NCBI RefSeq assembly: GCF_008932245.1
Contig: NZ_CP034911.1
Location: 124,001-188,000 of the forward strand
Origin: Sinorhizobium alkalisoli
GTDB taxonomy: Bacteria; Pseudomonadota; Alphaproteobacteria; Rhizobiales; Rhizobiaceae
DNA length: 64,000 nt
Direction of reading: 5' to 3'
The notes under the pieces were generated by a model. The model was not told where the DNA came from, did no database searches, and worked only from the letters and a program-made list of their open reading frames with translations. Shown piece by piece: positions 2,937-38,705 of this stretch (its first letter is position 1; each line of letters opens with the position of its first letter). Position numbers and translations under genes: made by a program.

Positions 2937-2991
2937 AGTTGGCGGGAAGAAGCCTCGACTCCGACAGAGTTCCGGGGCCTTGCGTTGCGCC

Positions 2992-4392: not shown

Positions 4393-4401
4393 CGGCCCGC
4401 C

Positions 4402-4815
4402 TCACTTGTCTTTTTTCTTGTACATGGCGAGCATGCGCTGGGTGACCAGGAAGCCGCCGAAGATGTTGACCGAGGCAAGCACCAGCGCGACGAAGCCGAA
4501 GCCGGTGGCAAGCCCCGAGGCGGAGATGCCGACCGCCAGCAGCGCCCCGACGACGATCACCGAGGAGATCGCGTTGGTCACCGCCATCAGCGGCGTGTGC
4601 AGGGCCGGCGTCACCGACCAGACGACGTAGTAGCCGACGAAGATCGCCAGCACGAAGATCGCCAGCCGGAAGACGAAGGGGTCGATCGCCCCGCCGGTGG
4701 CGCCATGCGCCATCGCACCGGCCGCATCCGGCACGTATTCGGCCGCCGTCCTGACCGCCTCGACCGCCCGTTCGAGATCGGTCAGCGCCTTGTCCAGAAG
4801 TTCGTTCGCTATCAC
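4402..4815 (-). CDS. pntAB: NAD(P) transhydrogenase subunit alpha part 2
   Basis: A 137-aa membrane protein with three predicted helices in its C-terminal 90 residues ([18 protein letters not shown], then [14 protein letters not shown] and [16 protein letters not shown]). It ends with the conserved MLAMYKKK tail. This is the split-gene form of the membrane part of the alpha subunit, normal in alphaproteobacteria. Its start overlaps the stop of pntAA by ATGA (4812-4815), which indicates translational coupling. It ends 10 bp before pntB. Confidence 0.95.
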
Positions 4816-5966
4816 TTGTCTCCCCCATTCGCGCCGCCGAAGGCCGGATGCACCACGGCGCCGCCGTGGGTCAGCGCCGTCGCCTTGGCGAGCTCATCCT
4901 CCATGTTGACCGCCAGGGCCTTCGTCTCCTTCGAGACCATCGTCTCCAGGAAGGTGACGAGGTTCTTGGCGTAGAGCAGCGAGGCGGAGGCGGCGATGCG
5001 GCCCGGCACGTTGAGGTGGCCGACGACCTTGACGCCGCCAAGCTCGACGACCTTGCCGGCTTCGGCGCCTTCGACATTGCCGCCGCGTTCGACGGCGAGG
5101 TCGACGACGACCGAGCCCGGCTTCATCGCGTCGAGCATGGCGCGGGTGACGAGCCGCGGCGCCGGCCGGCCGGGGATCAGCGCCGTGGTGATGACGATGT
5201 CCTGCTTGGCGATATGCTCGGCGACGAGCGCCGCCTGCTTGACCTGGTAATCCCTCGACATTTCCTTGGCATAGCCGCCGGCCGTCTCGGCCGCCTTGAA
5301 CTCCTCGTCCTCGACGGCGATGAACTTGGCGCCGAGCGAGGCGACCTGCTCTTTTGCCGCGGGGCGCACGTCGGTGGCCGACACCATGGCGCCGAGGCGC
5401 CGCGCCGTGGCAATCGCCTGCAACCCGGCGACGCCGGCGCCCATGATGAACACCTTGGCCGCCGGCACCGTGCCGGCCGCCGTCATCATCATCGGCAGGG
5501 CCCGGTCGTATTCGTGGGCCGCGTCGATCACTGCCTGGTAGCCGGCAAGGTTCGCCTGGCTGGACAGCACGTCCATCGACTGGGCCCGGGTGATGCGCGG
5601 CATCAGTTCCATGGCGAAGGCGGTCAGCCCGGCCGCCGCCATCGCGGCGATCGCCGCGTCGTTGCCGTAGGGGTCCATGATGGCGATGACGATCGCCCCG
5701 GACCGGTAGCCGCCGATCTCCTCAGCCGTCGGCCGCCGCACCTTGAGGATGACGTCGGCGCTCTTCGCATCGGCAGCCGTGCCGATCCGCGCCCCGGCTT
5801 TCTCGAACTCGGCATCCGGCACCCGCGACCCGAGGCCGGCACCGGCCTCGACGACCACGTCGAGACCGAGCCCCTTCAGGTTCTTGACGCTTTCGACGGA
5901 ACCGGCGACGCGCGGCTCGTCGGGACTGTTTTCCCGTGCTATGTACACACTCACACTCACCGTCAC
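4812..5966 (-). CDS. pntAA: NAD(P) transhydrogenase subunit alpha part 1
   Basis: Soluble NAD(H)-binding domain I, 384 aa, alanine-dehydrogenase-like fold. The family landmarks [19 protein letters not shown], the Rossmann loop [20 protein letters not shown] and the [14 protein letters not shown] segment are all present. The listed start is a GTG very close to GGAGGAAG; a GTG two codons later has better spacing. The gene follows the ferredoxin gene by 54 bp. Cotranscription with the P450 redox partners suggests it supplies NADPH to the pathway, which is inference. Confidence 0.95.
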
Positions 5967-6020
5967 CTTCCTCCGGCCGGTTCTCGATCACTGACGTCGA
6001 AGCAATTGTTCGCGCGGCCC

Positions 6021-6338
6021 TCAGTCTTCTGGGGCCAGCGTCACGATCATGCCCTTCAGCTCCGGCGCAAACCGGATTTGGCACGAAAGCCGCGACTGCG
6101 GCCGGCGATGGTCGGAGCTGTCGAGCAAATCGTCTTCGTCGACGGAGAGTGCCGGCAGGTGCTCCTGGAAGTCGTCGTCGACATAAACGTGACAGGTGGC
6201 ACAGGAACAGCAGCCGCCGCATAGGGCGAGCAGTTCGTCGACCCCCGCGTCACGAATATGCTCCATGACCGAGATCCCTTCGCGCCCCTCTACGGGCACG
6301 ACCTGTCCATTTCGCGAGATTACCGTGAAGTTCGACAT
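6021..6338 (-). CDS. [2Fe-2S] ferredoxin, putidaredoxin/adrenodoxin type
   Basis: A 105-aa electron carrier. The four cluster ligands follow the vertebrate-type spacing C40-x5-C46-x2-C49-x36-C86 (within [11 protein letters not shown] and RLSCQ). I start at the ATG of MSNFTV because GGAGG lies seven bases upstream; an ATG four codons earlier overlaps that Shine-Dalgarno. Between ferredoxin reductase and pntAA on the same strand, it is the likely direct electron donor to the P450 at 8-1198. Confidence 0.95.
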
Positions 6339-6365
6339 TTTTTCCTCCATATCCCCTGCGCGCCC

Positions 6366-7580
6366 TCACGCGGCGGCCAGCGACTTCAATCTGACGCTGC
6401 TGTTTGCAAGGACTTCCGGGCTGATGCGCGCGGCCCTTTCGACAAGCATCCGGCCCTCGACGTAATCCCTGACGCAATTGATGCAGTCCAGGGCGACTAC
6501 CGCTCCCTCGCGGAGATAGACGATGCTGAAGCTGCGGGTGCTGGGATCGCCTCTGACAACCGTCCCATCGAAACCGGCCGAAAGGCCGACGGTTTGAAGC
6601 CGGAGGTCATATTGGTTCGACCAGAACCAGGGTGTCGCCCTGTAGGGCGTCGGTTCACCGCAAAGCGTCTTTGCCACGGCCGTCGCCTGATCGTGGGCGT
6701 TCTGGACGGACTCTATCCTGAGGCCGTGGGCGCTCTTCACCCTGGCGCAGTCGCCGATCGCGAAGACGTCCGGCAGGCTCGTCCGGCAATGGTCGTCGAT
6801 ATCGACGCCGTTTCCTCCTGCCGCCCCGGCCTCGATCAGAGGCTCGACGCAGGGCAGGATGCCGATGCCGACGATGGCGATATCCGCATCGATCGTTTCA
6901 CCATCCGTCAGCGACACGCCGGTCAGCCGCCCCTCGCTGCCGACGAAGCTCTCGATGCCGGCCTTGAGGCGGATCTCGACGCCGTGGTCGCGATGTTCCC
7001 GCTCATAGAATCGCGACAGCGGCTCTGCGGCGACGCGAGCAAGCACGCGGTCCATCGCTTCGACCACCGTCACCGCCTTTCCAAGCTTGATCAGCGCAGC
7101 TGCGGCCTCGAGCCCGATGTATCCGCCGCCGACGACGACCACCCGTTCTGCCCTGCCAAGGTCTTCGACTAGCCGGTCCACATCCGAGCGGGTCCTGATC
7201 GTGTGGATGCCCTGGAGATCGTGCCCCGGGCAGGCCAAGCGGCGGGGACGCCCACCGGCCGACCAGACGAGATGGCCGTAGCTGAAGGTCTGACCGTCGG
7301 CACAACGGACTTGCTTCCCGTGGGCGTCGACGCTGAGGACTTCGTGGCCGAGCAGCAGGTCGATGTTGCGCGCCGCCCAGAACTCCGCCGGTCGGATCAG
7401 AATACGTTCGAAACCTTTGTCCCCGAGGAGATAATCCTTGGACAGGGGCGGGCGTTCATAGGGCGGATCCCGGTCCTCGCTGAGGAGGCCGATCGACCCT
7501 TGGAAGCCGTGCTGACGAAGCGATGTCGCGGCCTGGGCGCCGCCGTGTCCAGTTCCGACGATAAGGCAATCGTAATGCAT
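6366..7580 (-). CDS. FAD-dependent NAD(P)H:ferredoxin reductase
   Basis: A 404-aa putidaredoxin-reductase-type flavoprotein. The N-terminal FAD dinucleotide motif is VGTGHGGAQAA. The NAD(P)H motif VVVGGGYIGLEAAA lies near residue 150 and the second FAD motif DVFAIGDCA near 270. The start at 7580 (MHYDCLIVG) follows GGAGGAGGG; the open frame extends 53 codons upstream but that part is non-homologous. It passes electrons from NAD(P)H to the adjacent ferredoxin, completing a class I P450 system. Confidence 0.95.
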   Translation of the reverse strand: MHYDCLIVGTGHGGAQAATSLRQHGFQGSIGLLSEDRDPPYERPPLSKDYLLGDKGFERILIRPAEFWAARNIDLLLGHEVLSVDAHGKQVRCADGQTFSYGHLVWSAGGRPRRLACPGHDLQGIHTIRTRSDVDRLVEDLGRAERVVVVGGGYIGLEAAAALIKLGKAVTVVEAMDRVLARVAAEPLSRFYEREHRDHGVEIRLKAGIESFVGSEGRLTGVSLTDGETIDADIAIVGIGILPCVEPLIEAGAAGGNGVDIDDHCRTSLPDVFAIGDCARVKSAHGLRIESVQNAHDQATAVAKTLCGEPTPYRATPWFWSNQYDLRLQTVGLSAGFDGTVVRGDPSTRSFSIVYLREGAVVALDCINCVRDYVEGRMLVERAARISPEVLANSSVRLKSLAAA

Positions 7581-18262: not shown

Positions 18263-18710
18263 GCATGACGGGTTGGCGACGTTGACTCCCGTGGCCAGCG
18301 TCCAAGGAGCGCGAGTTCGCTCCGTATCGTTGGAGCAGCCTCTGCCGTCGGCGGTCTTGAACGGAAACGAACCGTCGACCCCGTGATCCCATGCCGGAAA
18401 ATTTCCTTTAGCGTTGGCCGCGTTGGAAAGGATTACGCGAGACAACGGAGGCGGCTTGAACCTTTTTTCGAACTCGTGAAGGTGCATCCCATCCTTGCAT
18501 AAACGAATTTTCCAGCTTCGCTGTAGGAAGCGTTGATCTGATCGAGGATCCGCAGCAAGGGCGCGTGCCGTGCGCGATTGGCTCTCACTTCTGCGAGATC
18601 ATTATTGATGTTCACTATATGTTCCCATATAAGATGTTGAGAAGACGCCGGGGTGCTGGGATTAAGCTTGACGCATCCTTGCAATGGCATGTGAATGAAA
18701 ATGGATACGG
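18263..18710. other. AT-rich boundary region before the defence island
   Basis: No well-supported gene. A short minus-strand frame (GTG start near 18612, beginning NINNDLAEVRANRARHAP) looks mildly protein-like but has no clear ribosome site. A dyad, TATATG-TTCC-CATATA, lies at 18616-18631 about 80 bp before the dprA-like gene and could be an operator. Confidence 0.4.
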
Positions 18711-19631
18711 ATGGGTAGAATGAAGCAGGCGACACTTTGGAACGTCAAAAACGACGTGGGACCTTTATTTGATCCTATCGATGCCGCGCTCGAACTCGGC
18801 GCGTATGAGGCTTTATGGACTGAACACAATGCGAGCTTCAAATCGCTGGCTGAGAAGTTCGCAGAATCTCCTGACGCGCGACCATCTGATTTTATCCCCC
18901 CGGAACAAGCGAGGTTGGTTGCAAGTCGGGTGATCGACAAACTCCGCGGTCCCGGCGGTGCGCGTTTTGACGTGCGTGTCAGAGGTGAGCTCGAATATCC
19001 GCAGCGATTGCGGGAAGCCACTCACCCTGTGGAGCTTCTTTATTTCCAAGGCCGATGGGAGTTAATCGCCAACCGATCGGTTGCCGTCGTGGGAACGAGA
19101 AAGCCAACTGCAGAGGGTAAAATCCGAACCCGGCAACTCGTCAAAAAACTTGTGGAGGATCATTTCACAATTGTTTCTGGCCTTGCCGAAGGCGTCGATA
19201 CCGAAGCTCACAACGCTGCGATCGCAGCTGGGGGTGAGACGATCGCCGTTATCGGAACTCCTTTGAACCATGTTTACCCGAAATCGAACGCGCTCCTTCA
19301 AGAGACTATCGCGCGAGAGCACCTCCTGATCAGCCAAGTTCCGCTTGAGCGTTACGAGGCCCAGAACTTCCGGGTGAACCGGTTCTTTTTCCCTGAGCGA
19401 AACAAAACAATGTCGGCCCTTACCGAGGCAACCATCATAGTAGAAGCCGGGGAAACGTCTGGGACGCTTGTGCAGGCGCGAGAGGCTCTCAAGCAGAAAC
19501 GGAAGCTATTCATTCTAAACAGCTGCTTCGAGCGATCGGACCTCACGTGGCCGAAGCGTTTTGAAGCCGAAGGAGCCATAAGAGTGCGGGAATATGACGA
19601 CATTAGACGCGAGTTGGTCAGCTCGTCTTAG
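18711..19631 (+). CDS. DprA/Smf-like SLOG-domain protein (module A)
   Basis: 306 aa. The Rossmann-like DprA core spans about residues 118-290: SVAVVGTRKPT, VSGLAEGVDTEAHNAA, TIAVIGTPLNHVYP, and FFPERNKTMSALTEATIIVEAGETSGTL, the DprA F-x-x-RN-to-SG block. The N-terminal 110 residues are not the usual SAM domain. The start is ATG at 18711 or three codons later. It overlaps the phosphoribosyltransferase gene by 38 bp. Not a housekeeping dprA by context; DprA folds bind DNA or nucleotides, and the pairing suggests a conflict system. Confidence 0.85.
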   Translation: MGRMKQATLWNVKNDVGPLFDPIDAALELGAYEALWTEHNASFKSLAEKFAESPDARPSDFIPPEQARLVASRVIDKLRGPGGARFDVRVRGELEYPQRLREATHPVELLYFQGRWELIANRSVAVVGTRKPTAEGKIRTRQLVKKLVEDHFTIVSGLAEGVDTEAHNAAIAAGGETIAVIGTPLNHVYPKSNALLQETIAREHLLISQVPLERYEAQNFRVNRFFFPERNKTMSALTEATIIVEAGETSGTLVQAREALKQKRKLFILNSCFERSDLTWPKRFEAEGAIRVREYDDIRRELVSSS

Positions 19632-20253
19632 GGTCGTCGGCGAGCTTGAGCGCCCCGATCATTTCTATCTCGATGATACCGATACATGTGCTTATTTCGG
19701 CACCTACACGCCACGGGCAGGTTTCGCGCACAGTTACACAAATCAGATCATCAGCAACCTCAAGAAGAGCCCATCCGTTCGAAACACCGGACAATGGCAG
19801 TATAAGCAGCGCGCTATTGCGACTGTCGGAGCCGCCATTGCTCAGAACGTCAACGCTGCGAGTTGGCAGAACACAGTCTTTGTTCCGATTCCTCCATCGA
19901 AACGACGGGATTCACCAGACTATGACGACCGGATGATACGTGTCGCTCAAGCGATGGGGCACAATGCTGATGTACGCGAGTTGCTCTATACCGCAGTGGA
20001 ACGAGAAGCTAGGCATACAAAGACCGATCGGCGTGACCGCGATGCGCTCCGAGCCTCGCTGGCAATCGATCCTCGTTTCACCTCCAATCCCCGTCAGCAG
20101 GTCGTTCTGCTCGATGACGTGTTGACTACGGGATGTAGCTTCAAAGTTTGCAAGGAGATGATTGTCGAGATCTGGCCCGCGTCTTCGGTCATCGGCGTAT
20201 TCGTGGCTCGTCGAGTACCGACAAATCCTTTTTCTGCACTCGATTTGGAATAG
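19594..20253 (+). CDS. phosphoribosyltransferase-fold protein (module A)
   Basis: 219 aa. The PRPP-binding loop VVLLDDVLTTGCSF (about 170-183) is a textbook type I phosphoribosyltransferase motif. A ComF-like segment, VFVPIPPSKRRDSPDYDDRM, lies at about 95-114. The basic stretch HTKTDRRDRDALRASL probably forms the flexible hood. It is translationally coupled to the DprA-like gene (38-bp overlap). The base substrate is unknown. It ends 33 bp from the convergent HAD-PRTase gene. Confidence 0.85.
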   Translation: MTTLDASWSARLRVVGELERPDHFYLDDTDTCAYFGTYTPRAGFAHSYTNQIISNLKKSPSVRNTGQWQYKQRAIATVGAAIAQNVNAASWQNTVFVPIPPSKRRDSPDYDDRMIRVAQAMGHNADVRELLYTAVEREARHTKTDRRDRDALRASLAIDPRFTSNPRQQVVLLDDVLTTGCSFKVCKEMIVEIWPASSVIGVFVARRVPTNPFSALDLE

Positions 20254-20286
20254 TCGGAGGCGGGTCAGCTTTTCTTCCATCCATCT

Positions 20287-21531
20287 CTATGGCCAGTCCC
20301 ACGCAGAGTATCGTTTGAAAGCGTCAGCGACCTGCTCCGGCGCCTTGGGATTTCGTATTTGCGCACCGTTGGAAAAGACGCTTACTTGCGTCGTTGCGCT
20401 GACGTAGGGCTTGTAGGGGTCCTTGAGTTCAGGAGTCATGCCGGTCAGGGCACGGTAATGGTTTCCTCCAGGCGTTTTCAGCCAAGACGCACAGATGACG
20501 TTGGCCCCCGTCGCCCTAACGAACGCTCGGGCCGCCTCGAGGGAAAAACCCTCCGTTAGGATGTCGTCCACGACCAAGACCGTCTTGCCTGGCTTAAGTG
20601 GGCTGGCTTTATATCGGCCGCCGAGTTGTCCTGTCTTCAAGGGATCGCGGCGAAGCCTGATCGTCGACAGCTGATTTCCGTGGTCTAGCGTAATGCCCTG
20701 CTGACGCGCAGCCTGAGACTTTTGCGCGGGAGCATGGCGTTCCACGAGATCGACTAAATAGCTTGCACGCAGTGTATCGGCCACAATCTTGAGAGCGTTC
20801 GATAGCACCTTCTGCGTGGAACTGGGATGGTGGCCTGGATACGGCGCGACGTAGTTGATGACCCTTCCCAATCCAGAGAAATAGAGGCGTGCGCCCATCA
20901 AGCGGCCCCAGAACCGCAAATCGCCCTTGTTGAATTTCACAGCCTGCTTCGCATCCGTCGAATAGGCACCAGCCGTTGGATAGGACTTGGAATACTCAGC
21001 GAGCGGGGCGATGGAATAGACCTTCAGGTCGTCTTTCTCGATCGCCCAAAACCAGTCGCCAATTGACAGGCAACAACAATCGATAAAGCGAGCGATGTCC
21101 TTTGGTGATTCAAATTCAAACCCGTAAGCGCTATTTTGCGCGTGCCAGCGGGCGTTGAGAAACATGAGTTTACCGTTTCTGGCTGCGATCATGTCCTCCT
21201 TCGTCGAGCCAATATAGATCGCCTCCTCCGGCTGCCAGTTTTGTGTTTGCAACACATGATCCATCGCACCGGCAAACTGTTTCATCGGCATATCGTGACC
21301 ACCGCGATAGTAAGGAATCGTATGCCCAATGGCCTCGCTCAGGATATCTGGGATTTGACGCTTGGACCCAGTCTCAATCCAACTGCTGTTGCTGACAATC
21401 ACAGGCGAGACATTCCTGGCCGTCAAAAACCTCAGCAATTTGATGGTCTCGTCCATTAACAGCGGATCGATGCTTCCCTCGACAACGAGGGTATCGCGCA
21501 GAGAAAAAATCGCGCCTTTCAAGGTGTACAT
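20287..21531 (-). CDS. degenerate HAD - phosphoribosyltransferase fusion (module B)
   Basis: 414 aa, two domains. Residues 1-150 follow a HAD fold (AIFSLRDTLV, SPVIVSNSS, AIYIGSTKEDMIAARNG), but the nucleophile motif DxDGT reads S10-L-R12-D-T, so both catalytic Asp are lost. Residues about 205-380 are a type I PRTase with the PRPP loop VLVVDDILTEGFS at 318-330. The HAD part is therefore likely a binding module rather than a phosphatase. Third gene of a protease-DprA-HAD/PRTase operon on the minus strand. Confidence 0.8.
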   Translation of the reverse strand: MYTLKGAIFSLRDTLVVEGSIDPLLMDETIKLLRFLTARNVSPVIVSNSSWIETGSKRQIPDILSEAIGHTIPYYRGGHDMPMKQFAGAMDHVLQTQNWQPEEAIYIGSTKEDMIAARNGKLMFLNARWHAQNSAYGFEFESPKDIARFIDCCCLSIGDWFWAIEKDDLKVYSIAPLAEYSKSYPTAGAYSTDAKQAVKFNKGDLRFWGRLMGARLYFSGLGRVINYVAPYPGHHPSSTQKVLSNALKIVADTLRASYLVDLVERHAPAQKSQAARQQGITLDHGNQLSTIRLRRDPLKTGQLGGRYKASPLKPGKTVLVVDDILTEGFSLEAARAFVRATGANVICASWLKTPGGNHYRALTGMTPELKDPYKPYVSATTQVSVFSNGAQIRNPKAPEQVADAFKRYSAWDWP

Positions 21532-21543
21532 TTAGGTGTCTCG

Positions 21544-22512
21544 CTAAAGAAAACTGGCCTGGCGATATAGATGATCATCGCGCAAGGATCGCTCGACGAA
21601 GGCACGGAATGCTTCATCCTGACCCGGCACTGTGAACACTTGTCGGGGGCCTTGCCCCCCCGGAAGACTTATCTGTCGATGATCCCATGTGGGCAGCCGC
21701 AGACCAGCGATCGCCCTGCCGAGTCCTGCCGCGTAGCGGACTGTATGCGCCGTCCCACTGCGTTCCTTCCACTCGACAGGGATGAGCGCTCTCGCTAGCG
21801 CAGCTTGCAACCTGTTGCGTCGGACAAAGTTCATCGCGCTGTAGCTTTCACCCGGCAGATATTCAGTGATAACGGCGCCACCGCTCTCAACTATCTTCTT
21901 TCGAAGCGGCCCAATGTTCTTTGGATAGTCAGCGGTTATTCCTGTTCCCAGAACCGCAATTGTGGGCACTTTTGCGGTCAAGCTGGCGTTGTGGATGGCT
22001 TGATCAATCCCCAATGCGAGCCCACTGACTGTAGGGTGACCCCAGTGTTTCAAAGTCAACCCGACATATTCCGCGAGCCACAGCCCGTCAGGAGATGGAT
22101 CGCGCGTTCCGACGATCGCAATCGATGGCGCGCTGAGGATCTCTGCATTGCCTTGTACGAAAAGCCAGTGCGGCGGATCGTCGAGATGAAGCAGGGTGCG
22201 CGGGTAGCATTTATCGGATCGGAAAGCGATCCGGATTTTGCTTGCCTCGAAAACAGCTCTCAGCTGGTCGACGGATTCAGCAAGGGCCTTCCTTATCCCA
22301 TCCCAATCGGCATTCGAGGTACTGGGAAGGCGCGCGCCTTTCGATTTGAGTAGCTCGGACAGCTCCTCTCCCTGAGAATAAAAAACCGATTGAAATGATA
22401 GTTTCGACTCTGCGATCTGCCAGAGCGTATGGAAGCCTACACCCTTCATCATCGCCAAAGAGAGGAACGCTATTTTCTCGCTGGTCAAATCCGGTTGATT
22501 GTCCACTTGCAC
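21544..22512 (-). CDS. DprA/Smf-like SLOG-domain protein (module B)
   Basis: 322 aa. The N-terminal helical part (EKIAFLSLAMMKGVGFHTLW) resembles the DprA HhH/SAM region. The SLOG core reads SIAIVGTRDPSPDG, VSGLALGIDQAIHNAS and TIAVLGTGITADYPKN. The last block is divergent (FVRRNRLQAALARALIPVEW). I chose the GTG at 22512, preceded by GAGG, which begins 11 bp after the protease stop; the open frame reaches 22596 inside that gene. It sits 12 bp before the HAD-PRTase gene. Confidence 0.82.
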   Translation of the reverse strand: MQVDNQPDLTSEKIAFLSLAMMKGVGFHTLWQIAESKLSFQSVFYSQGEELSELLKSKGARLPSTSNADWDGIRKALAESVDQLRAVFEASKIRIAFRSDKCYPRTLLHLDDPPHWLFVQGNAEILSAPSIAIVGTRDPSPDGLWLAEYVGLTLKHWGHPTVSGLALGIDQAIHNASLTAKVPTIAVLGTGITADYPKNIGPLRKKIVESGGAVITEYLPGESYSAMNFVRRNRLQAALARALIPVEWKERSGTAHTVRYAAGLGRAIAGLRLPTWDHRQISLPGGQGPRQVFTVPGQDEAFRAFVERSLRDDHLYRQASFL

Positions 22513-22522
22513 CCTATTAGCC

Positions 22523-23443
22523 TCATTCTGTGATGCCGGAGGGCATGGCCGCCTGCGCAGCTTGCCGCGCTTCCAGATCTTCGCGCGCCATAGCAATCGT
22601 TTCCGCGACAGTCGGCGGCAGCTGACATTGCGGTGTCAGTTTATGCTGCTCCAAAACTTCATGCAGCGCCTCAATGCTCAATATAGTGAAAAAACCCGGC
22701 TCAGATTTTCCGAGCTGCTCCAAGCTCTCAATCACCATGCCTAGAACGAAGCCGCGTTCGTGAAAGACGGGGCCACCGCTGAAGCCACCGCGTGGGGGTC
22801 CCGACACTACGAAGCGGACGTAACGGTCGCGATACGTGTCCACGACGCCATTGACTTCCACAGTGGCAGCAAGTTGGATTGGATCCTTGGCGGTCGGCAC
22901 TGGCGGATATCCAAAGACGATACCCTTCGTGAGCAGCCAATCGGCATCGACAATCCAATCGTCGTAGTGAAATCCCAACGCCATCGATGGAGTATTTCTG
23001 TCAATTCCGCCCATTACGAAGACAGCGACGTCAATCGCGTCATCCTCGTGAAAAAACGGACCCCGAAGGATGTGCGGATTCTCGTGCCGCATGGACCAGA
23101 TGGGGATTTCGCCATTAAGCATTCCTCCGGTTCGGGCTTCTTCGATCAATTCATCTCTGAAGATCCAGCCCCTGCTATAAGGAACGACCGAAAGGACTTC
23201 ATTATCCTCCAATACGTGCCGAGCCGTAAGGTACACGCCCTCTCCGACGTGAAAGGCCGTCCCAATTCCCTCGTCACCTGAGGGCAATTTGACCACCACG
23301 GCAGCGCAAGCCAACGCACCAACTCTTAGGATCAATCGTTGAAAATCCTCAGACCACTCAGCGCGTCGCTCCGCCTCTTCGGAGGTCATTGGCCTTGGCC
23401 GGCCCCCTTCCGGCCATTTGTCTGTCGCGAGCGGTTCATTCAT
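22523..23443 (-). CDS. trypsin-like serine protease (module B)
   Basis: 306 aa, no signal peptide, so probably cytoplasmic. All three catalytic residues are visible: His in YLTARHVLED (about 76), Asp in DDAIDVAVFVM (about 138) and Ser in PPRGGFSGGPVF (about 222), in the order of a chymotrypsin-fold protease. The ATG at 23443 is listed; a GTG five codons earlier is possible. It leads the operon with dprA-B and HAD-PRTase. Protease effectors of this type occur in bacterial conflict systems; that role is inference. Confidence 0.85.
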   Translation of the reverse strand: MNEPLATDKWPEGGRPRPMTSEEAERRAEWSEDFQRLILRVGALACAAVVVKLPSGDEGIGTAFHVGEGVYLTARHVLEDNEVLSVVPYSRGWIFRDELIEEARTGGMLNGEIPIWSMRHENPHILRGPFFHEDDAIDVAVFVMGGIDRNTPSMALGFHYDDWIVDADWLLTKGIVFGYPPVPTAKDPIQLAATVEVNGVVDTYRDRYVRFVVSGPPRGGFSGGPVFHERGFVLGMVIESLEQLGKSEPGFFTILSIEALHEVLEQHKLTPQCQLPPTVAETIAMAREDLEARQAAQAAMPSGITE

Positions 23444-23458
23444 ATTGCTACAATCCAC

Positions 23459-23809
23459 TCATTGAGAATTAGAGACCCGATCTCACCGCACTTGGGCTGT
23501 GTCCTATTTTACTCTCTCAAAGAGTATCCTGGGTGGCAATGTCGCTGAGGACGAGATGTGTAAAATGAACCACAGAATTAGCTCTGCGAAACTGGCCCCT
23601 CGAAGCGAGGAGCAATCATGCATTTGCTTTACGCAGACGGTGAGCTTGTCACCCCGTCCCTGAAGAGATGGTTCTTGCTGTTGATCCTCGGTCGGATATG
23701 CGACGCTAGACAACCAGCGGCCGCGACCAGGTGTGGAGCTTGTCTTTAAGACTTCCTTAATCAACGGTCTTGACGGAGGCCAATCACCTCACTATCTTCA
23801 TTTTACCAA
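23459..23809. other. intergenic region between two divergent defence operons
   Basis: 350 bp with no supported gene. It must carry the promoters of the minus-strand protease operon and of the plus-strand STAS-like gene. AT-rich stretches near 23500-23520 and 23790-23810 are the likeliest promoter areas; no clear operator dyad was seen. Confidence 0.4.
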
Positions 23810-24385
23810 ATGAAGGAAGTGAAAGTGCATATTTCGATATTCGACCTGGCTGGCGGCAAGAGCATACTGACGGGCAGTTTGCCCGGTAGGAAGGTGCTGG
23901 CAGATCTCATCGCAGCAGTTCAGCCCGAAGCGAGCGGCGAGATCGTCTTTCTTGACTTCGCGGGCATCGAAGTGGCGACGTCCTCATTTCTGCGCGAATG
24001 CGTCGTTGGTTTTCGCGACTTCGCCCGAGGCCAGGCGAACCTTTATCCCGTCCTCGTGAACGCAGGCGCCTTGGTCGTTGAGGAACTGGATTTCTTTGCG
24101 CGGCAACGAGGCGACGTTTTTTGGTCATGCACCCGGGATCACGATGGTGCTCTGGCTGATATCAAGCTGGTGGGCGAGCTTGAGCCCGCCCTTCGCACGA
24201 CCTTTGAACGCATCTATCGCCTTGGGGAAGCAACTGCGCCTCAGCTCGCGGCGCTCGGTGAAGATCAGGGAATTAAACCTACTGCTTGGAACAACCGCCT
24301 CGCGTCGCTAGCGGCAAAGGGCCTTGTTGTTGAACGCCGTGTTGGCAAGACGAAGAACTTTGTGCCGCTGTTGGAGGTTGGCTGA
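23810..24385 (+). CDS. STAS-like DUF4325 protein with winged-helix tail
   Basis: 191 aa. The N-terminal half resembles STAS-like DUF4325 (IVFLDFAGIEVATSSFLREC, an anti-sigma-antagonist-like strand-helix). The C-terminal 70 residues (LRTTFERIYRLGEATAPQLAAL to LAAKGLVVERRVGKTKNF) look like a winged-helix DNA-binding domain. DUF4325 proteins are often encoded near GHKL ATPases, and one lies at 25851-26750. The stop overlaps the next start by one base (24385). A switch or sensor role is inferred. Confidence 0.72.
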   Translation: MKEVKVHISIFDLAGGKSILTGSLPGRKVLADLIAAVQPEASGEIVFLDFAGIEVATSSFLRECVVGFRDFARGQANLYPVLVNAGALVVEELDFFARQRGDVFWSCTRDHDGALADIKLVGELEPALRTTFERIYRLGEATAPQLAALGEDQGIKPTAWNNRLASLAAKGLVVERRVGKTKNFVPLLEVG

Positions 24386-24735
24386 TGGGTCTTGATTACA
24401 TACGCAGCAATACCGGTAAGCCGTGGAAAAAGCGCTGGAATGGCGGCCTTGATCGTCTGAAGAGACCAACGCTATTCGACCTTTCGATCACGGAGACAAG
24501 CCACAGCGTAACGGTCGAACTGGCTCCGGGCACGCGTCTCAACCTTGGCGATACCTGCATCGTTGAGCGCGGCAGCGATGACTTTGCGGTAACAAAGGGG
24601 CTCCACCCGGTCGGCCGTATTCGCAACCCCAGCAGTGAAATTTCAGCGGCCGTCATAGCGGGCAAGGGCTTCATCGAGGCTCGCGTGACGCACGTTGGGC
24701 TTTTTGGCGATACGGCGGAGGTAAATTTTGCATGA
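24385..24735 (+). CDS. uncharacterised small beta-rich protein
   Basis: 116 aa that I do not recognise. After a basic N terminus (TGKPWKKRWNGGLDRLKRP) it is beta-rich and soluble, with no Cys cluster or membrane segment except TCIVERG. It is coupled on both sides: its start overlaps the STAS-like stop and its stop overlaps the next start by ATGA (24732-24735). It is therefore probably a dedicated component of the three-gene unit. Confidence 0.65.
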   Translation: MGLDYIRSNTGKPWKKRWNGGLDRLKRPTLFDLSITETSHSVTVELAPGTRLNLGDTCIVERGSDDFAVTKGLHPVGRIRNPSSEISAAVIAGKGFIEARVTHVGLFGDTAEVNFA

Positions 24736-26009
24736 GCGTACGTCCTGCCCATGAACCGTCACGCACATTTCGGCAGCCACAGCGACTTTGGGATGATCCC
24801 GCCGTTCATACCCCAGCATTGGGCTGCCGCGGATGCAAAGACTTCGGCATCTGCGGAGGGCTTCACACGGACGCCGGGATTTTTCTCGATTGCCATGACT
24901 TGTGCACCTGCTCTGACAAGTCGAAGTGCGACATGGTTTGCCGCTTCAATCCGACCCATTTCGTTGCGCGGATGCGCGAAATCGACGGTCTTGACCTGGG
25001 CACATTGCCACGTCTTGAAGAACTGCCGCTACCTAGCCTGCCGCCCATCGTGCCGCTCATTCATCACAAATACAGCCGATCCATACCGCTAAACGAGGCG
25101 GTCGTCGCCATCCCCCTCTGCGAACTTGTCGATTTGGGAAGCGGACAGTTGCACGTTCGCACACGGGACGAACTATCGGCGCGATTTCTGGTGCCAGCCG
25201 AGGCTGCGATAATCGTGAGCGGGGTAGACAAGGACCACATCATCGAGCGCTGGTGGGAATTAGACAACCGCCCTGTGCTAATCGCGCAACTTCGCAAACT
25301 TGGAATCACGATGGTGACGGCGCCGAACTACAGCGTTCTCACTGACGTACCAAGAACAGACAATCTCCACGCCATGAAGCGCATTTTTATGGTTTGGAGC
25401 GAATTTGCCGCGGCAGGTTTGCCCGCGGCGCTCCATGTGAATGCGCGTACCGAGCACGATTATAAGCGCTGGGCCGAGCTTATCCGGGAACGCCCTGAGA
25501 TCGGCGTGGTTGCCTTTGAATTCGCGACCGGCTGTGGCCGCGGCGAACGCATCACCTTCCATACTTCGCAGCTGATGTTGCTTGCCCGCCGGGTTGGCCG
25601 GCCGCTCGATATGGTCGTCCGCGGTGGGCTCCACATCCTGCCGCAGCTGACGCAAGCATTCCGCCGAGTAACGCTCCTTGAAACCCAATCGTTTTCACGA
25701 ACGCAGCGCCGGCGCCGCGCGTACCTCAACGAGGCAGGGCGCTTGCACTGGGCGCCGTCACCGACGGAAGTGGGGGCACCCCTCGACGAGCTTCTGGCTC
25801 ATAACGTCAAGGTCATGCGCATGGCGATGGAAATGGCGATGCAAGAGCCGTCAAAGCCGATGCGGTTTGTTCAGCGCACGAAAGGTGTCGCACCGAACCG
25901 AAATGATGAAGCCGGGCAGATCAGCTTTTTTGACAATGCTCAGCTTGCCATTCGGGCTCAAGTTGTCACCACTAAGCGTGAGGACATGATCCCCGCTGCG
26001 AAAGCGTAG
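24732..26009 (+). CDS. Cys-rich protein with DUF4417-like barrel domain
   Basis: 425 aa. The first 70 residues hold eight Cys (about 32, 35, 41, 54, 58, 60, 66, 70) spaced like zinc or Fe-S ligands. The middle (about 185-330) has alternating strand-helix units, MVTAPNYSVLTDVPRTDNLH, AALHVNARTEHDYKRW and DMVVRGGLHILPQL, that resemble DUF4417-type TIM barrels. The C terminus is basic and then disordered. The last 159 bp overlap the convergent GHKL gene. Enzymatic activity is unknown. Confidence 0.65.
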   Translation: MSVRPAHEPSRTFRQPQRLWDDPAVHTPALGCRGCKDFGICGGLHTDAGIFLDCHDLCTCSDKSKCDMVCRFNPTHFVARMREIDGLDLGTLPRLEELPLPSLPPIVPLIHHKYSRSIPLNEAVVAIPLCELVDLGSGQLHVRTRDELSARFLVPAEAAIIVSGVDKDHIIERWWELDNRPVLIAQLRKLGITMVTAPNYSVLTDVPRTDNLHAMKRIFMVWSEFAAAGLPAALHVNARTEHDYKRWAELIRERPEIGVVAFEFATGCGRGERITFHTSQLMLLARRVGRPLDMVVRGGLHILPQLTQAFRRVTLLETQSFSRTQRRRRAYLNEAGRLHWAPSPTEVGAPLDELLAHNVKVMRMAMEMAMQEPSKPMRFVQRTKGVAPNRNDEAGQISFFDNAQLAIRAQVVTTKREDMIPAAKA

Positions 26010-26750
26010 GTCACCGTTCTCATGCGCCAGCGCACGAAAAAGCTGACCGATCCCATAGCCATGTCCCGATTGGCGCCCGAACCTCGAGGCGCCGTCGGAT
26101 ATGGCTTCACGCAGCGCTTGGCCAGAATGCTCAAGTTGTGTGAACTCGGCGTTTTGTCTGAGGCTTGCCAGAACACCCATTCCAGCATCGGCAACAACAA
26201 ACTCAAACGCATCGCCACTTACTGCATAGGCGGCAAGCCCGGTGTCAATCCGGCCGCTATGGGTATAGACGTTGTCCTGGAGCTCCCCCAGCGCACCAAG
26301 AAGACCTTCAACAAGTCTTCGCGGAATATCGCGCGCGGCTGCGGCATTCTCCGCGCGTTTGGCCCATTGATCCCAGAGCGACTGATCGTCGGATTGAGGG
26401 TCGTGACGGAACAGGGGGAAAACGCCCGCGACGTCATTAATCCCGTTACCGGTAATGGTGCCGTGATCCAGTGCTTGATCCACCATCCCGACGAAACGCG
26501 CTTCGAACGCCACGGCTCGATATGCGTCTGGCAAGAGGCGGCGAGCCATGGCCAGTTCAATCAGAGGACCAATTCTTCCCGATTTTCGGATGCGGATGTC
26601 CCCGGCTTGTGGAAGTCGGCCAGAGACAGCCTGCCAAAGCAGATCATCAGCATTCTCAAAGCTGCCCTCAATGTCACGTGCCGCCTGCATGCCGTCCTTG
26701 CAAATCCCCCAATGCTCTTTTCCGCAACGCAACACAATCCCGACCCCCAT
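25851..26750 (-). CDS. GHKL (histidine-kinase-like) ATPase
   Basis: 299 aa. The Bergerat-fold boxes are clear: N box GELQDNVYTHSG (about 155-166), G1 box VVADAGMGV (about 186-193) and G2 box GHGYGIGQL (about 229-237). No phospho-acceptor His or dimerisation domain is seen, so it is a stand-alone ATPase. The N-terminal 150 residues are an uncharacterised helical domain. It is convergent with the STAS-like operon and overlaps its last gene by 159 bp. A kinase or gyrase-like partner to the STAS-like protein is plausible. Confidence 0.82.
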   Translation of the reverse strand: MGVGIVLRCGKEHWGICKDGMQAARDIEGSFENADDLLWQAVSGRLPQAGDIRIRKSGRIGPLIELAMARRLLPDAYRAVAFEARFVGMVDQALDHGTITGNGINDVAGVFPLFRHDPQSDDQSLWDQWAKRAENAAAARDIPRRLVEGLLGALGELQDNVYTHSGRIDTGLAAYAVSGDAFEFVVADAGMGVLASLRQNAEFTQLEHSGQALREAISDGASRFGRQSGHGYGIGQLFRALAHENGDLRFRSGDHVLTLSGDNLSPNGKLSIVKKADLPGFIISVRCDTFRALNKPHRL

Positions 26751-26905
26751 GCCACCACTGGCGACACCGGACGTGCCCTTGACCGGCTATCGGATAGGAT
26801 GAATCAGTCGACGTTAATACAATATTGGCGCGAAAATGCCGCATGCGCTACAGGAAAGGGCCAAAACACCCGATTTTATTGCGGAAGAAATGAGGAGGGT
26901 GCCGT

Positions 26906-27505
26906 ATGCAACTTCGCCTGATTAGCGCGATATTCATCTTCGTCGGTTCGTACCTGCCCCTCAGCCTTATTCTGCTTGCGCAGAACGTCGATTACACGCG
27001 CCTGAATCAAGCAATATGTTGGAAGTTCTGGGAGCAGGGATGCTCGCTGCCGCTGAATAACCCGGGCTTTGCACTTGGAATTTTTGGGGCCTGCATTCTG
27101 TGTTTCATCGTCACGCTGGTTGCCCTGACGCTCGTCCAGCCGAAGCACGAAATTCAACTGACAGAAGTGAAGCACGTGCCGGCCGATCTCATGAACTACA
27201 CATTGCCGTACGTCGTGTCTTTCATGAGCATCGACTATCAAGAGACAGGGAAGTTCGTAGGCTTTCTGATCTTCCTGGGCTGGATGTTTTGGATCACATA
27301 TCGTTCGGGGCAAATCATTCTGAACCCGATCCTGATCGCGTTTGGGTGGCGGCTTTATGATCTCTCGTACCGATTCGTCGGGGATGCGACGGATCATACC
27401 AGCAATGCGCTCGTCTACGGTGCGGTCGCGACCGGCGAGCGTCATCGGCAGGTTGCCATCCAAGATATTCTCATCGTTAAGCCCACTCGCAACATGGATG
27501 ATTGA
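26906..27505 (+). CDS. kwaA: KwaA, membrane component of the Kiwa defence system
   Basis: 199 aa with four predicted transmembrane helices (about 5-25, 55-77, 116-132, 136-150). KwaA-like features: an N-terminal IFIFVGSYLPLSLILLAQN, the loop ADLMNYTLPYVVSFM and the tail SGQIILNPILIAFGWRLYDL. GAGGAGGG precedes the ATG. KwaA forms the membrane sensor of Kiwa, which detects phage attack and works with KwaB. It is directly followed by kwaB, with a 2-bp gap, which makes the call strong. Confidence 0.87.
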   Translation: MQLRLISAIFIFVGSYLPLSLILLAQNVDYTRLNQAICWKFWEQGCSLPLNNPGFALGIFGACILCFIVTLVALTLVQPKHEIQLTEVKHVPADLMNYTLPYVVSFMSIDYQETGKFVGFLIFLGWMFWITYRSGQIILNPILIAFGWRLYDLSYRFVGDATDHTSNALVYGAVATGERHRQVAIQDILIVKPTRNMDD

Positions 27506-27507
27506 AA

Positions 27508-28428
27508 ATGGCTGTACCGCAAGCATTTACGGATTTCGATATCAATGCAGCGACCGTCGCTCTCTGGGTCTTCAAGAAATCATTTCGGCCGGGAGCGGCA
27601 CCTGTTTTCACAGGGCGCTGGGTGCAAACAGACGAGGCACTCGATGGCGCCCTAAAGGAAGCGGTCATTCAAGAGCGGGCTCGAATTCTTGAAGTCAATG
27701 AATACGGCCTGCTGGCTCAAAATAACGAGGATAGCGCGCTTCGGATCGATGGCCTGCTCACACACGCCGGGCTGCTGACGGCACAGATGGCTGCGGAGAT
27801 TGCCACAAAGAAAGTGCGCAATTTGAAAGATGTTCAAAACAGTGATTTTTACGCCATCAAACTCGTTAGCGGTGATTCTATCCTCTACGCGGTTCGAAAA
27901 ACGGACGCGTCATGGAAGTCGAAAAAAGCAGTCAATTATCTGACAGTTCTCTTTGACGACGATGAGCTAACGCTACAAGAGTCACCGAGCTTTTCAGTGT
28001 CTCGGCATGTCGACTTTTTTATTTTCGAGGACGACGTGCTGATGACGAATAAAGCGGCTTTCGAATCGGTCCTGAGTTATAAGCAGGCTCACGCCGACGA
28101 CTTTATCGCCTTGCAGGCGGAGCAAGATTTTTCTTCCTTGTTTTCCAGCATCGCCCCTCTAGTCACTTTTGTGGGAACGAATAAGCTTCATCTGCGGCGG
28201 GTATGCGCTATTAGACAGAAAGGCCACTACCGGAACGCGGCATTCATGAATAGATTGAGACAGACACACCAGCAATTCGGATTATTACTAATTTTCGATG
28301 CGCAAGGTCGAATTGACCCCACCGAAGAGTCATGTGTAGACATCATCCGCGCGTTTCTGGACCACCGCCTAACATCGCCATTCTCTGAAAACGTCTACGA
28401 CGTTCCGGATACAACCCCGGTTCACTGA
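27508..28428 (+). CDS. kwaB: KwaB (DUF4868), effector of the Kiwa defence system
   Basis: 306 aa, soluble. The DUF4868 signature region is clear: SDFYAIKLVSGDSILYAVRK, then SWKSKKAVNYLTVLFDDDEL, SVSRHVDFFIFEDDVLMTN and AAFESVLSYKQAHADDF. KwaB binds DNA and limits phage replication together with KwaA (family knowledge). The ATG at 27508 comes two bases after the kwaA stop. Length matches the family (about 300-320 aa), so the system looks intact. Confidence 0.88.
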   Translation: MAVPQAFTDFDINAATVALWVFKKSFRPGAAPVFTGRWVQTDEALDGALKEAVIQERARILEVNEYGLLAQNNEDSALRIDGLLTHAGLLTAQMAAEIATKKVRNLKDVQNSDFYAIKLVSGDSILYAVRKTDASWKSKKAVNYLTVLFDDDELTLQESPSFSVSRHVDFFIFEDDVLMTNKAAFESVLSYKQAHADDFIALQAEQDFSSLFSSIAPLVTFVGTNKLHLRRVCAIRQKGHYRNAAFMNRLRQTHQQFGLLLIFDAQGRIDPTEESCVDIIRAFLDHRLTSPFSENVYDVPDTTPVH

Positions 28429-28553
28429 GTGGTGTGCTGCTTGAAGTAGCGACATTGTTGCGATCTGCAATTTCGCAGTTATGCGATTTGTCCGGGGCGC
28501 TGGCGGCCCCTATCCAAAACCACATCTCGAAACCGAGTAGCCGGATTGGTGAT

Positions 28554-28850
28554 CTACGTCACTCCCCATGCCCGAAACCTCCCCATCCCGGTCATCTCGC
28601 GCAGGCCGAGTTCCAAAACGATCCGCCGCGCCGCCTGCGGCGTGACGTCGAGCGTCTTGGCTACCATTCCGGCCGACACCAGTGGCTTCGCCATGACGAG
28701 CTCGACCAACTCCGGCAGCTTCGAAGACGTTCGTCTCCCCGCCAATTTGCGTTCCATCATCTGCCGAGCCAACGTCAGCCGGTCATGTTCTTTCATGCCG
28801 ATCTCGGCGGCCGCCAATAACCCATGGGCTCCCGTATATCCGTATATCAA
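28554..28850 (-). pseudogene. C-terminal fragment of an RHE_PE00001-type HTH protein
   Basis: The frame encodes 98 aa matching the C terminus of a rhizobial plasmid protein family: LPELVELVMAKPLVSAGMVA, then LDVTPQAARRIVLELGLREM and the tail MTGMGRFRAWGV. The full-length protein is about 350-400 aa, so the N-terminal three quarters are missing. Adjacent to a PIN fragment, it marks a recombination scar at the island's edge. Confidence 0.6.
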
Positions 28851-35804: not shown

Positions 35805-36259
35805 TCGGCGCCTCTCGGCTGTTCGGAAGACGTCAACAGGTGTCCATTTCCCGATCGTCGAGAACGCTGACCTCTCACCCATCCTCTCGGAGACTCGCAC
35901 CCGGCACTCTGGTGCTGTTCGGGTAGGAAGATTCGGGTGCGGGAACGCGCATGGAGCGGCATCGCTGGGCAGTGTCCCACAAGACCACTCGAGGTGAGTC
36001 GGTCCTCGTTGAACGTACAACATACGAGCCTGGCACCAACCGATTGTAGCATTCACAGGAAAACAATCCGGCGACGAGAAGTCGGACATATGGGGCTAAC
36101 CCTCGGGGTCCAAAGCAAAAATCGGGAAAGCTCGCCGCGGATCATCCCAATCCGTTAACCTTTTGTTAACCCTAAACTTCTGGACGGGTAAGGAGAATCG
36201 TGTTCTACCTTTGGCGGGTAATGGCCGGTAAACCGGCAGAAAGCCGCCAAGAGGAACAG
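35805..36259. other. repA upstream region
   Basis: No supported gene. Near 36155-36175 two GTTAAC palindromes are separated by five bases, followed by TA-rich sequence, about 90 bp before the chosen repA start. This is the expected place for the repABC promoter and RepA operator. Confidence 0.45.
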
Positions 36260-37483
36260 ATGGCGATAGCGAACCGAGTGAAATCAGTTGTCGGCTCACA
36301 GGAAGATGCTGGCAGCAAAATAATGCGCCATGCAGGGCTTCTGTCCGGGCAGTTGCAGCAGCTCAGAACTCGCATGTATCCACCAAGGTCGGAAAAGACG
36401 TTGCGTCCGTTTTTGACCAATGAAGTGTCGAAGCTGACATCTATACCGGATTCAACTCTAAAACTCATGTCAACCGAAGGACGCGGGCCGGTTCCCAGCA
36501 GGCTGGAGAATAATCATCGCGTCTACACCCTGGCCCAGATCAATGAGTTGCGCGAGTTATTCGCCAAGCAAAAGCCTGTAGAAGCTCTGCGATTCCTCCC
36601 CCGCCGTCGGGCTGGCGAGCATCTCCAAGTTCTTGCTATAGCCAACTTCAAGGGCGGCAGCGCGAAAACGACAACCTGCGTTCACCTTGCCCACTATCTG
36701 GCCCTTCATGGCTATCGCGTTCTCACATTGGACTTGGATCCACAAGCATCCTTGTCCGCTCTGTTCGGTGCCCAGCCAGAGGTCGACGTTGGGTCGAATG
36801 AAACGATCTATGCCGCTCTGCGCTACGACGAGGCCGAACGTCGTCCAATCCGAGATATTATTCGCAAGACATATTTTGATGGCATCGACCTCATTCCTGG
36901 CAATCTGGAAGTCATGGAATATGAGCATGAAACGCCGCGTATTCTGGCGAACAGGTCTAGCTCCGGAGCTATCTTCTTCGAACGACTTAAGCTCGCCCTT
37001 ATGGAGGTCGAAACCGACTACGACATCGTCATCCTAGACACTCCGCCGTCGCTCGGTTTCCTGACGTTGAGCGCGATATACGCCGCGACCAGCATGATCA
37101 TCACGGTCCACCCGGCCATGCTCGACGTTGCGTCGATGAGCCAGTTCCTTCTCATGATGGGCGACTTGATCAGCGTTCTGAATGAGAGCGGTGCTCAGTT
37201 GGACCAGGACTTCATCCGCTATCTGGTCACACGGCACGACCCGAATGATGCGCCGCAGTCGCAAGTCGTTGCGATGCTTCGTCATTTGTTTGGTTCCGAT
37301 GTCTTGTTACCGACCGCGATCGAAAGCACGGCTGTCGAGGCAGCTGGCTTGGCGAAACGTTCGATATACGAGCTCGAAATTGGGCAAATCGGACGCGACA
37401 CCCATAAGCGTGCCCGCGAGGCGGTTGATGCGGTAAACGAGGCGATTGTTCGCCTTATCAGCGATAGCTGGGGGCGGACATGA
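36260..37483 (+). CDS. repA: plasmid partitioning ATPase RepA
   Basis: 407 aa, ParA type Ib with an N-terminal extension that represses the operon. The deviant Walker A reads ANFKGGSAKTTT (about 129-140), Walker A' is LTLDLDPQASLSALFG, and Walker B is DYDIVILDTPPSLGFL. The start at 36260 follows AGAGGAAC; an in-frame ATG lies 20 codons earlier. The stop overlaps repB by ATGA. RepA with RepB and parS segregates the replicon. Confidence 0.95.
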   Translation: MAIANRVKSVVGSQEDAGSKIMRHAGLLSGQLQQLRTRMYPPRSEKTLRPFLTNEVSKLTSIPDSTLKLMSTEGRGPVPSRLENNHRVYTLAQINELRELFAKQKPVEALRFLPRRRAGEHLQVLAIANFKGGSAKTTTCVHLAHYLALHGYRVLTLDLDPQASLSALFGAQPEVDVGSNETIYAALRYDEAERRPIRDIIRKTYFDGIDLIPGNLEVMEYEHETPRILANRSSSGAIFFERLKLALMEVETDYDIVILDTPPSLGFLTLSAIYAATSMIITVHPAMLDVASMSQFLLMMGDLISVLNESGAQLDQDFIRYLVTRHDPNDAPQSQVVAMLRHLFGSDVLLPTAIESTAVEAAGLAKRSIYELEIGQIGRDTHKRAREAVDAVNEAIVRLISDSWGRT

Positions 37484-38502: not shown

Positions 38503-38506
38503 CAAT

Positions 38507-38522
38507 CCTGACAGCTGTCAGG
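38507..38522. repeat. parS-like palindrome, copy 1 (repB-repC intergenic)
   Basis: Perfect 16-bp palindrome CCTGACAGCTGTCAGG, five bases after the repB stop. It recurs at 39938-39961. Position and symmetry fit a RepB-binding parS site. Confidence 0.72.
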
Positions 38523-38560
38523 GTTCTGGAGCTTATAGAGGAAAGGAAGCACAGCAAAAG

Positions 38561-38609
38561 AAAAAGGCCCCCCAAACGTTGCCGTCGTGGAAGCCTCTCT
38601 CTGATTTAG
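38561..38609 (-). ncRNA. counter-transcribed antisense RNA (incompatibility RNA) region
   Basis: In repABC plasmids a short antisense RNA between repB and repC limits RepC synthesis. On the minus strand here I see a -35-like TTGACT (38645-38640), an 18-base spacer, a weak -10-like ATTCTT (38621-38616), then a stem-rich stretch ending GGGGGGCC followed by TTTTTC at about 38566-38561. Ends are estimates. Confidence 0.6.
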
Positions 38610-38705
38610 CACCTCAAGAATCGCATTTCCACGAATCTTAGTCAAGAGTCTTTGGCGTCGTTTTTGGCGAGCGAATTTCTTTTGCCTTGTTGAAGGTGAA
38701 GGAAG

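Follow-up and report, generated by a model that had tools for sequence, protein, structure and literature searches.

As far as the accessible text of the papers goes, a pair of genes from a hotspot in P2 phages, encoding a DprA-like protein and a phosphoribosyltransferase (PRTase), protects against T7 and lambda (Rousset et al., PMC9122126). The ShosTA system has been called a two-gene cluster (PMC11878078); its ShosT is reported to disturb purine metabolism, with T7 Gp0.7 as the trigger (review PMC12593503, citing Pu et al. 2025), and its ShosA to bind DNA and to act through DNA and recombination (PMC12593503). A comparable arrangement is that of RqlH, whose PRTase is toxic via its phosphoribosyl pyrophosphate (PRPP) pocket and is bound and neutralised by the DprA-like partner RqlI (Russell and Mulvey, PMC4670107), and trypsin-NucA defence systems have also been described (PMC7159879). 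Structures of ShosT, also with PRPP bound (8zvb-8zvd, 9w2p, 9w2q), and of ShosA (8zva, 9vzo) are available in the PDB. Here we describe a five-gene locus at positions 18711-23443 of a 64,000-nucleotide stretch of Sinorhizobium alkalisoli contig NZ_CP034911.1 (the window), where two DprA-PRTase pairs, both of which are by their sequence ShosA/ShosT, a described toxin-antitoxin phage-defence family, stand together with a gene for a trypsin-fold protease. We favour, with somewhat better than even confidence, the reading that this is a compound ShosTA defence system in which the protease is a functional third component, most likely one that controls release of the toxin.

Composition of the locus

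All five genes of the locus are intact and they form two convergent DprA-PRTase pairs with 33 bp between their ends. In both modules the DprA-like gene and the PRTase gene adjoin on the same strand, overlapping by 38 bp in module A (plus strand) and separated by 12 bp in module B (minus strand), and module B is headed by the protease gene, with a gap of 10 bp before its DprA-like gene. The original prediction had put forward this gene set, its convergence and spacing and the position of the protease, all of which are borne out by the open reading frames (ORFs) and their domains, as is its view of a defence-type locus with two DprA/SLOG-PRTase modules by matches in PADLOC and the PDB. The G+C content falls from ~0.61 outside to 0.54-0.55 across the region, in which 4 promoter-like candidates compare with 2.9 in shuffled sequence and 10 terminator-like candidates with 5.4 (standard deviation 2.7). 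Genes of the repA, repB and repC types lie in a row at 36200-39920 of the window and the ShosTA locus is therefore on a plasmid-type replicon, either a repABC plasmid or a chromid.

The first gene of module A (18711-19631, plus strand) encodes ShosA-A, a putative DprA-like antitoxin of 306 amino acids that matches Pfam DNA_processg_A (E 2e-57) and PADLOC ShosA (1e-98) as well as solved DprA and ShosA proteins in the PDB (ShosA 1.4e-22). The second (19594-20253, plus strand) encodes ShosT-A, a putative toxin that is a short, ComF-like PRTase of 219 amino acids with no HAD part; it matches PADLOC ShosT (3e-48), its match to Pfam Pribosyltran is weak (E 0.011) and that to the ComF subfamily model (6e-8) is far under the cut-off. 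The PDB yields no sequence match for ShosT-A, whose structural model, of moderate confidence (predicted local distance difference test, pLDDT, 73), is closest in fold to ComF 7p0h and ShosT 8zvd. Its PRPP-loop motif, VVLLDDVLTTG, was seen in the sequence at 20101-20133 (plus strand), and the identity of ShosT-A as a PRTase is better supported by this motif, the PADLOC match and the fold than by Pfam.

In module B the putative toxin ShosT-B (20287-21531, minus strand) is a HAD(pseudo)-PRTase of 414 amino acids that matches PADLOC ShosT (PDLC03012, 1e-65) and aligns over residues 4-414 with the PDB ShosT entries 8zvb, 9w2p and 9w2q (E 6e-62 to 7e-62); in Pfam it matches Pribosyltran (E 4.5e-7) and also HAD families (best E 1e-4). 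Its PRPP-loop motif, VLVVDDILTEG, was seen in the sequence at 20548-20580 (minus strand), and its HAD part has a Ser, within FSLRDTL, where we would expect the nucleophile Asp of a canonical HAD protein, the crystallised ShosT likewise having Ser (FSIADVV). The DprA-like putative antitoxin ShosA-B (21544-22512, minus strand) lies in an ORF that reaches 22596, its start probably being the GTG at 22512 since homology to Rhizobium leguminosarum begins only at residue 29 of the ORF; it matches Pfam DNA_processg_A (2e-58) and, over residues 39-297, the PDB ShosA entries 8zva and 9vzo (E 2e-62 to 3e-62).

The protease, encoded by the first gene of module B (22523-23443, minus strand, with its ATG at 23443 in an ORF extending to 23458), has a predicted trypsin/HtrA fold (Trypsin_2 8e-9), and its AlphaFold2 model (pLDDT 81) is matched by Foldseek to Rv3671c, AlgW, DegQ and DegS. 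A domain scan gave no PDZ match at E up to 1, no signal peptide is visible by eye in the ORF (no predictor was run), and the protein is cytosolic-looking. The catalytic triad expected of the family corresponds, in the numbering of the 311-residue ORF, to His81 (23216-23218), Asp143 (23030-23032) and Ser227 (22778-22780), all on the minus strand, and every one of the 22 aligned sequences of protease relatives has the same three residues. Weak PADLOC matches in the region are to RT-Protease and LmuA, which are defence families with trypsin-like domains.

Conservation of the five-gene block

The double ShosTA pair occurs in seven loci, with the window included and Labrys counted once, and five of the seven also contain the protease, these being the window, R. 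leguminosarum p3 (L019), Rhizobium NFR07 (L033), Labrys (L030 and L034, apparently one locus) and a metagenome-assembled genome of Sphingopyxis (L041). The convergent four-gene form is shared by R. leguminosarum p3, NFR07, NT-25 (L021) and ACO-34A (L022), in the last of which IS66 interrupts ShosT-B, and a tandem form with A followed by B is found in Labrys and Sphingopyxis. Outside these loci ShosTA of types A and B each stand alone.

The blastn match to the two closest relatives begins and ends at 18603-23475, which we regard as the conserved block, at 83.7% identity for R. leguminosarum p3 and 83.6% for Rhizobium NFR07; the homology covers just the five genes and ends at both block edges, and the two relatives are 95% alike over 8.75 kb, hence not independent of each other. 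Homology to the NT-25 plasmid runs over 18620-22514 and ends at the start of ShosA-B, just before the protease. Against R. leguminosarum p3 and Rhizobium NFR07 the ratio of nonsynonymous to synonymous substitution (dN/dS) of the five genes lies at 0.037-0.085 in all ten comparisons, which are not independent of one another, and six of the eight comparisons with more distant copies are saturated at silent sites. Purifying selection is strong on every one of the five genes, and the low dN/dS speaks against chance.

The possibility that the conserved set has a sixth member, placed between the ShosT-B and protease genes, was considered and rejected, as no gene is shared there across loci. Labrys has at this point a 344-residue ORF with no Pfam match, the protein of which was found by tblastn over the gathered loci only in three copies of its own locus (L006, L030, L034), and in Sphingopyxis there is a minus-strand ORF (L041, 5634-6964) that is unmatched by the Labrys protein and is RES-domain-like by eye.

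Linkage between protease relatives and DprA/SLOG-PRTase pairs

Relatives of the protease were sought with an alignment of six rows in a single genome of each species, which gave 28 loci whose neighbours were identified with iterated profiles in flanks of 7 kb. A DprA or SLOG-HTH (helix-turn-helix) gene lies in the flanks of 14 of the 28, and 13 of these 14 linked loci have a PRTase at E<1e-3, the remaining one (Tsukamurella, L040) having a weak PRTase neighbour. When the seeds of the scan and near-copies (L033, L034, L035, L056, L057, L058) are removed the linkage stands at 8 of 22, and in six of these eight the neighbour is a true DprA; at an assumed 2% per locus the chance of at least 8 of 22 is 6e-9, a figure to be read with the loci not being fully independent. 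At closer range, DprA/SLOG is within 1.5 kb of the protease gene in 9/28 (4/22 of the non-seed loci), and a DprA/SLOG or PRTase tag is within 0.9 kb in 9/28. On viral contigs DprA and PRTase are present at all five protease loci (L068 looks identical to L048), and on plasmids a SLOG-type gene and a PRTase are present at 8/8 opened loci, of 13 hit records (H4, H5 and H11-H13 lie outside the opened set). Proximity to such modules is thus commoner among relatives of the protease than among ordinary proteases, as none of 30 control Trypsin_2 (PF13365) loci, taken from 63 places, has a DprA/SLOG gene, in flanks that were shorter (1.5 kb each side of the domain match, ~1 kb past the gene).

Linked loci occur in both Pseudomonadota and Actinomycetota, and the protease gene may be first, last or divergent, a variable order which suggests that the linkage is kept or regained through rearrangement. 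On a tree of the protease (29 rows, without the broken, partial or near-copy L051, L058, L059, L060 and L068) the 'unlinked' label changes 7 times, at least 3 of the changes being forced by well-supported branches; 38 of 500 label shuffles gave a value as low, so that linkage is only weakly clustered and linked and unlinked relatives are interleaved, on a tree in which 9/26 inner branches are open and long branches are present.

Further architectures are found among these loci. L027, L056 and L057 combine the protease with a DprA and two PRTases, and in Nocardioides (L043) a PRTase-DprA-PRTase set lies beside the protease. The DprA of L056 (1808-3547) and L057 (3923-5659) is of ~578 amino acids, nearly double the usual length, and is placed between the two PRTases with the protease near. 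In L024-L026, L050 and L055 a SLOG-HTH fusion (PF21716, 'addiction module antidote') and a ComF-like PRTase are accompanied by a divergent protease of the window family, with CBASS-like genes following them in the plasmid loci L024-L026; the fusion and its PRTase look like another SLOG-PRTase toxin-antitoxin type. A possible different partner is seen in L037, where a 1221-residue YobI-like P-loop NTPase (2957-6622) is divergent from a protease of the same family.

Role of the protease

In the compound system that we envisage each half would be a ShosTA pair, with a PRPP-using ShosT toxin that disturbs purine metabolism and a DprA-like, DNA-binding ShosA that keeps it harmless, and the two types of ShosT, one short and ComF-like and the other a HAD-PRTase, probably correspond to two triggers or two toxic outputs. 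When infection is sensed the protease would most likely cleave ShosA, or process ShosT, in the cytosol and so release the toxin, which would stop growth before phage are produced. What the analysis itself establishes is the content of the locus, the families of its genes, the intactness of their active-site motifs, purifying selection, and the recurrent linkage of the protease family with DprA/SLOG-PRTase modules. The roles of toxin and antitoxin are assigned by analogy with published work on other members of the family, and we infer phage defence by the window copy, the direction of control and the substrate of the protease, including any cleavage of ShosA or ShosT. The protease may serve as a trigger or as a brake; with ShosT published as a toxin it is more likely that the protease acts upstream, and for the original suggestion of a nucleotide that is made first and then triggers proteolysis no evidence was found.

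Several observations weigh against a part for the protease in ShosTA, and some of them would suit two ordinary, independent ShosTA modules that are co-located on a plasmid with an unrelated protease as a hitchhiker of the defence island. In loci found via ShosT, not via the protease, the protease is present at 3 of 15 ShosT-B loci besides the window (L019, L020 and L030; the 15 are eight plasmids, three genomes, three viral contigs and one phage) and at 1 of 16 ShosT-A loci (L019; seven genome loci and nine plasmids). These tallies contain the apparent near-copies L062/L063, L163/L164 and L168/L169 and a partial ShosT-A in L170 and L171, score as negative Pseudomonas fragi L029 (where a gene 2 kb upstream is annotated as a trypsin-like peptidase and matches the protease profile only at E 2e-3), and leave out 13 actinobacterial plasmid records (12 Streptomyces, one Kitasatospora), H36-H37, H42 and H47; from the class- and phylum-wide alignment search with ShosT-B near full-length matches were kept and many weak one-domain matches dropped. 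Of the gathered loci, L156-L158 are short pieces from the ends of contigs. The protease is an optional, minority third part of ShosTA, and its presence at a minority of ShosT loci implies that ShosTA works without it. No protease was found in NT-25 or ACO-34A, both of which hold the double pair, NT-25 being a clean case of presence and absence. Seen from the protease, all six seeds of the scan are themselves linked, which inflates the linkage counts, and 14/28 genome loci have no DprA/SLOG gene in their flanks (three of these, L037, L038 and L060, end <300 bp past the protease); among the unlinked, L049 is by an OLD-UvrD pair and L053 by a ThiF-domain gene, and the protease of L047 is in no evident defence context by eye. 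No cleavage site or substrate has been identified for the protease, and an action of ShosA through DNA and recombination, as reported, would make release by cleavage of ShosA less direct. A hitchhiker is nevertheless hard to reconcile with linkage in half of the genome loci and on all five viral contigs, in several gene orders and in two phyla, or with the low chance probability of the non-seed count on its assumed background rate and partly dependent loci, and we consider it unlikely.

The protease might instead be an effector or separate arm that destroys host or phage proteins, with ShosTA as its sensor or guard, which is the direction taken in the original prediction; its relatives do adjoin more than one kind of neighbour, as those of an independent effector would, and trypsin-like domains are known from other defence families (the weakly matched RT-Protease and LmuA, and the trypsin-NucA systems of PMC7159879), but ShosT is itself reported to be the toxin (review PMC12593503) and both ShosT proteins here keep their PRPP loops and their constraint, so that this too seems rather improbable. 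It is hardly credible that the pairs are DprA/ComF competence or DNA-uptake genes with a housekeeping role. The DprA and ComF subfamily models do match, but at 169.8 and 156.4 bits for DprA against the dprA equivalog cut-off of 191.15 and at 32.9 bits for ComF against 233.55; the matches to ShosA and ShosT are far better, the pairs are sporadic and often borne by plasmids or prophages, and the genome has a separate DprA gene on another contig (its third DprA match, 34% identical over the match). A housekeeping DprA/ComF was rejected on the subfamily cut-offs and this separate gene, and among the loci examined the genes were not widely found alone in housekeeping contexts.

If the protease does control toxin release in a compound ShosTA, it would bear on the step in ShosTA that links a phage signal to release of the toxin, which is left open in the papers and for which the recurrent protease, with its shuffled gene orders, points to a specific and testable control, and DprA-PRTase toxins would be added to the immune effectors that are controlled by proteolysis. 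A wider class of protease-gated toxin-antitoxin systems can be proposed more tentatively, as a possibility that we place a little short of even, in which cytosolic trypsin-fold proteases would have repeatedly joined SLOG/DprA-PRTase pairs in Pseudomonadota, Actinomycetota and prophages and would activate a nucleotide-metabolism toxin by specific cleavage, the double ShosTA being a two-input version. Annotation tools with a two-gene definition of ShosTA may overlook a third component and count a compound locus as two separate systems.

Neighbouring genes

The Kiwa neighbour noted in the original prediction was confirmed with PADLOC, as KwaA (26906-27505, 5e-76) and KwaB (27502-28428, 1e-121), 3.5 kb from the five-gene block with four other ORFs between. 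These four, at 23810-26750, are a STAS-like DUF4325 gene, a gene for an unknown protein of 116 amino acids, a 425-residue gene with plasmid relatives that mostly carry the annotation DUF4417, and, on the opposite strand, an ORF that weakly matches HATPase; PADLOC gave no match for the three of them that were scanned, and they are a possible unnamed conflict module. The window brings ShosTA close to Kiwa within 18711-28428, a pairing also reported, in the accessible part of the source, for the Pf phage PfAC02a of Pseudomonas aeruginosa, which carries both systems (PMC11878078). Right after Kiwa is an ORF of 128 amino acids (28434-28820) with no Pfam match; on the NT-25 plasmid a stretch lying ~5 kb upstream of the double ShosTA matches its DNA at 78%.

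Comparison with known systems

The original prediction took the locus for a candidate new system. A new core system was rejected, since the PADLOC and PDB matches are to ShosA/ShosT, and with ShosTA as the core the locus cannot be claimed as new in that respect, while defence becomes the better supported; what stands is the exact five-gene set, which is absent from the accessible texts of the literature searched. No protease partner of ShosTA is described in the passages on ShosTA consulted in that literature, which was mostly without subscription papers and is weak evidence of novelty, and a protease-bearing compound ShosTA looks unreported with its ShosTA core already known.

The protease shares a trypsin fold and a His-Asp-Ser triad with serine proteases of the HtrA/DegP/MarP type and differs from them in having no PDZ match and no export signal visible by eye, and in belonging to a family that is often defence-linked. 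The cassette of SLOG-HTH, ComF-like PRTase and protease genes found on plasmids of Agrobacterium and Rhizobium (L024-L026, L050, L055), which is not known to us by any name, has the same protease family beside SLOG-type and PRTase genes, whereas its antitoxin-like protein is a weak SLOG/DprA match fused to HTH (PF21716) and not a full DprA, and its protease is divergent from the pair. PsyrTA and RqlHI resemble the modules described here in that a toxic PRTase domain is paired with an antitoxin of DprA type, with weaker profile matches, but RqlH is, in the accessible text, a RecQ-like helicase-PRTase and neither ShosT here has a helicase domain at E up to 1. The closest likeness is to ShosTA: both pairs have a DprA-like ShosA followed by a PRTase ShosT, the PRPP loop is intact in both ShosT proteins, ShosT-B matches over its full length including a HAD part without the nucleophile Asp, and in a P2-like phage the gene for a ShosT-B relative (31.7%) adjoins the phage replication gene. 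The locus departs from ShosTA in the ShosT of module A, which has only 219 amino acids and no HAD part, and in its composition, for where ShosTA is described, as far as the accessible text goes, as two genes, there are here two plus two genes in unlike pairs together with a protease.

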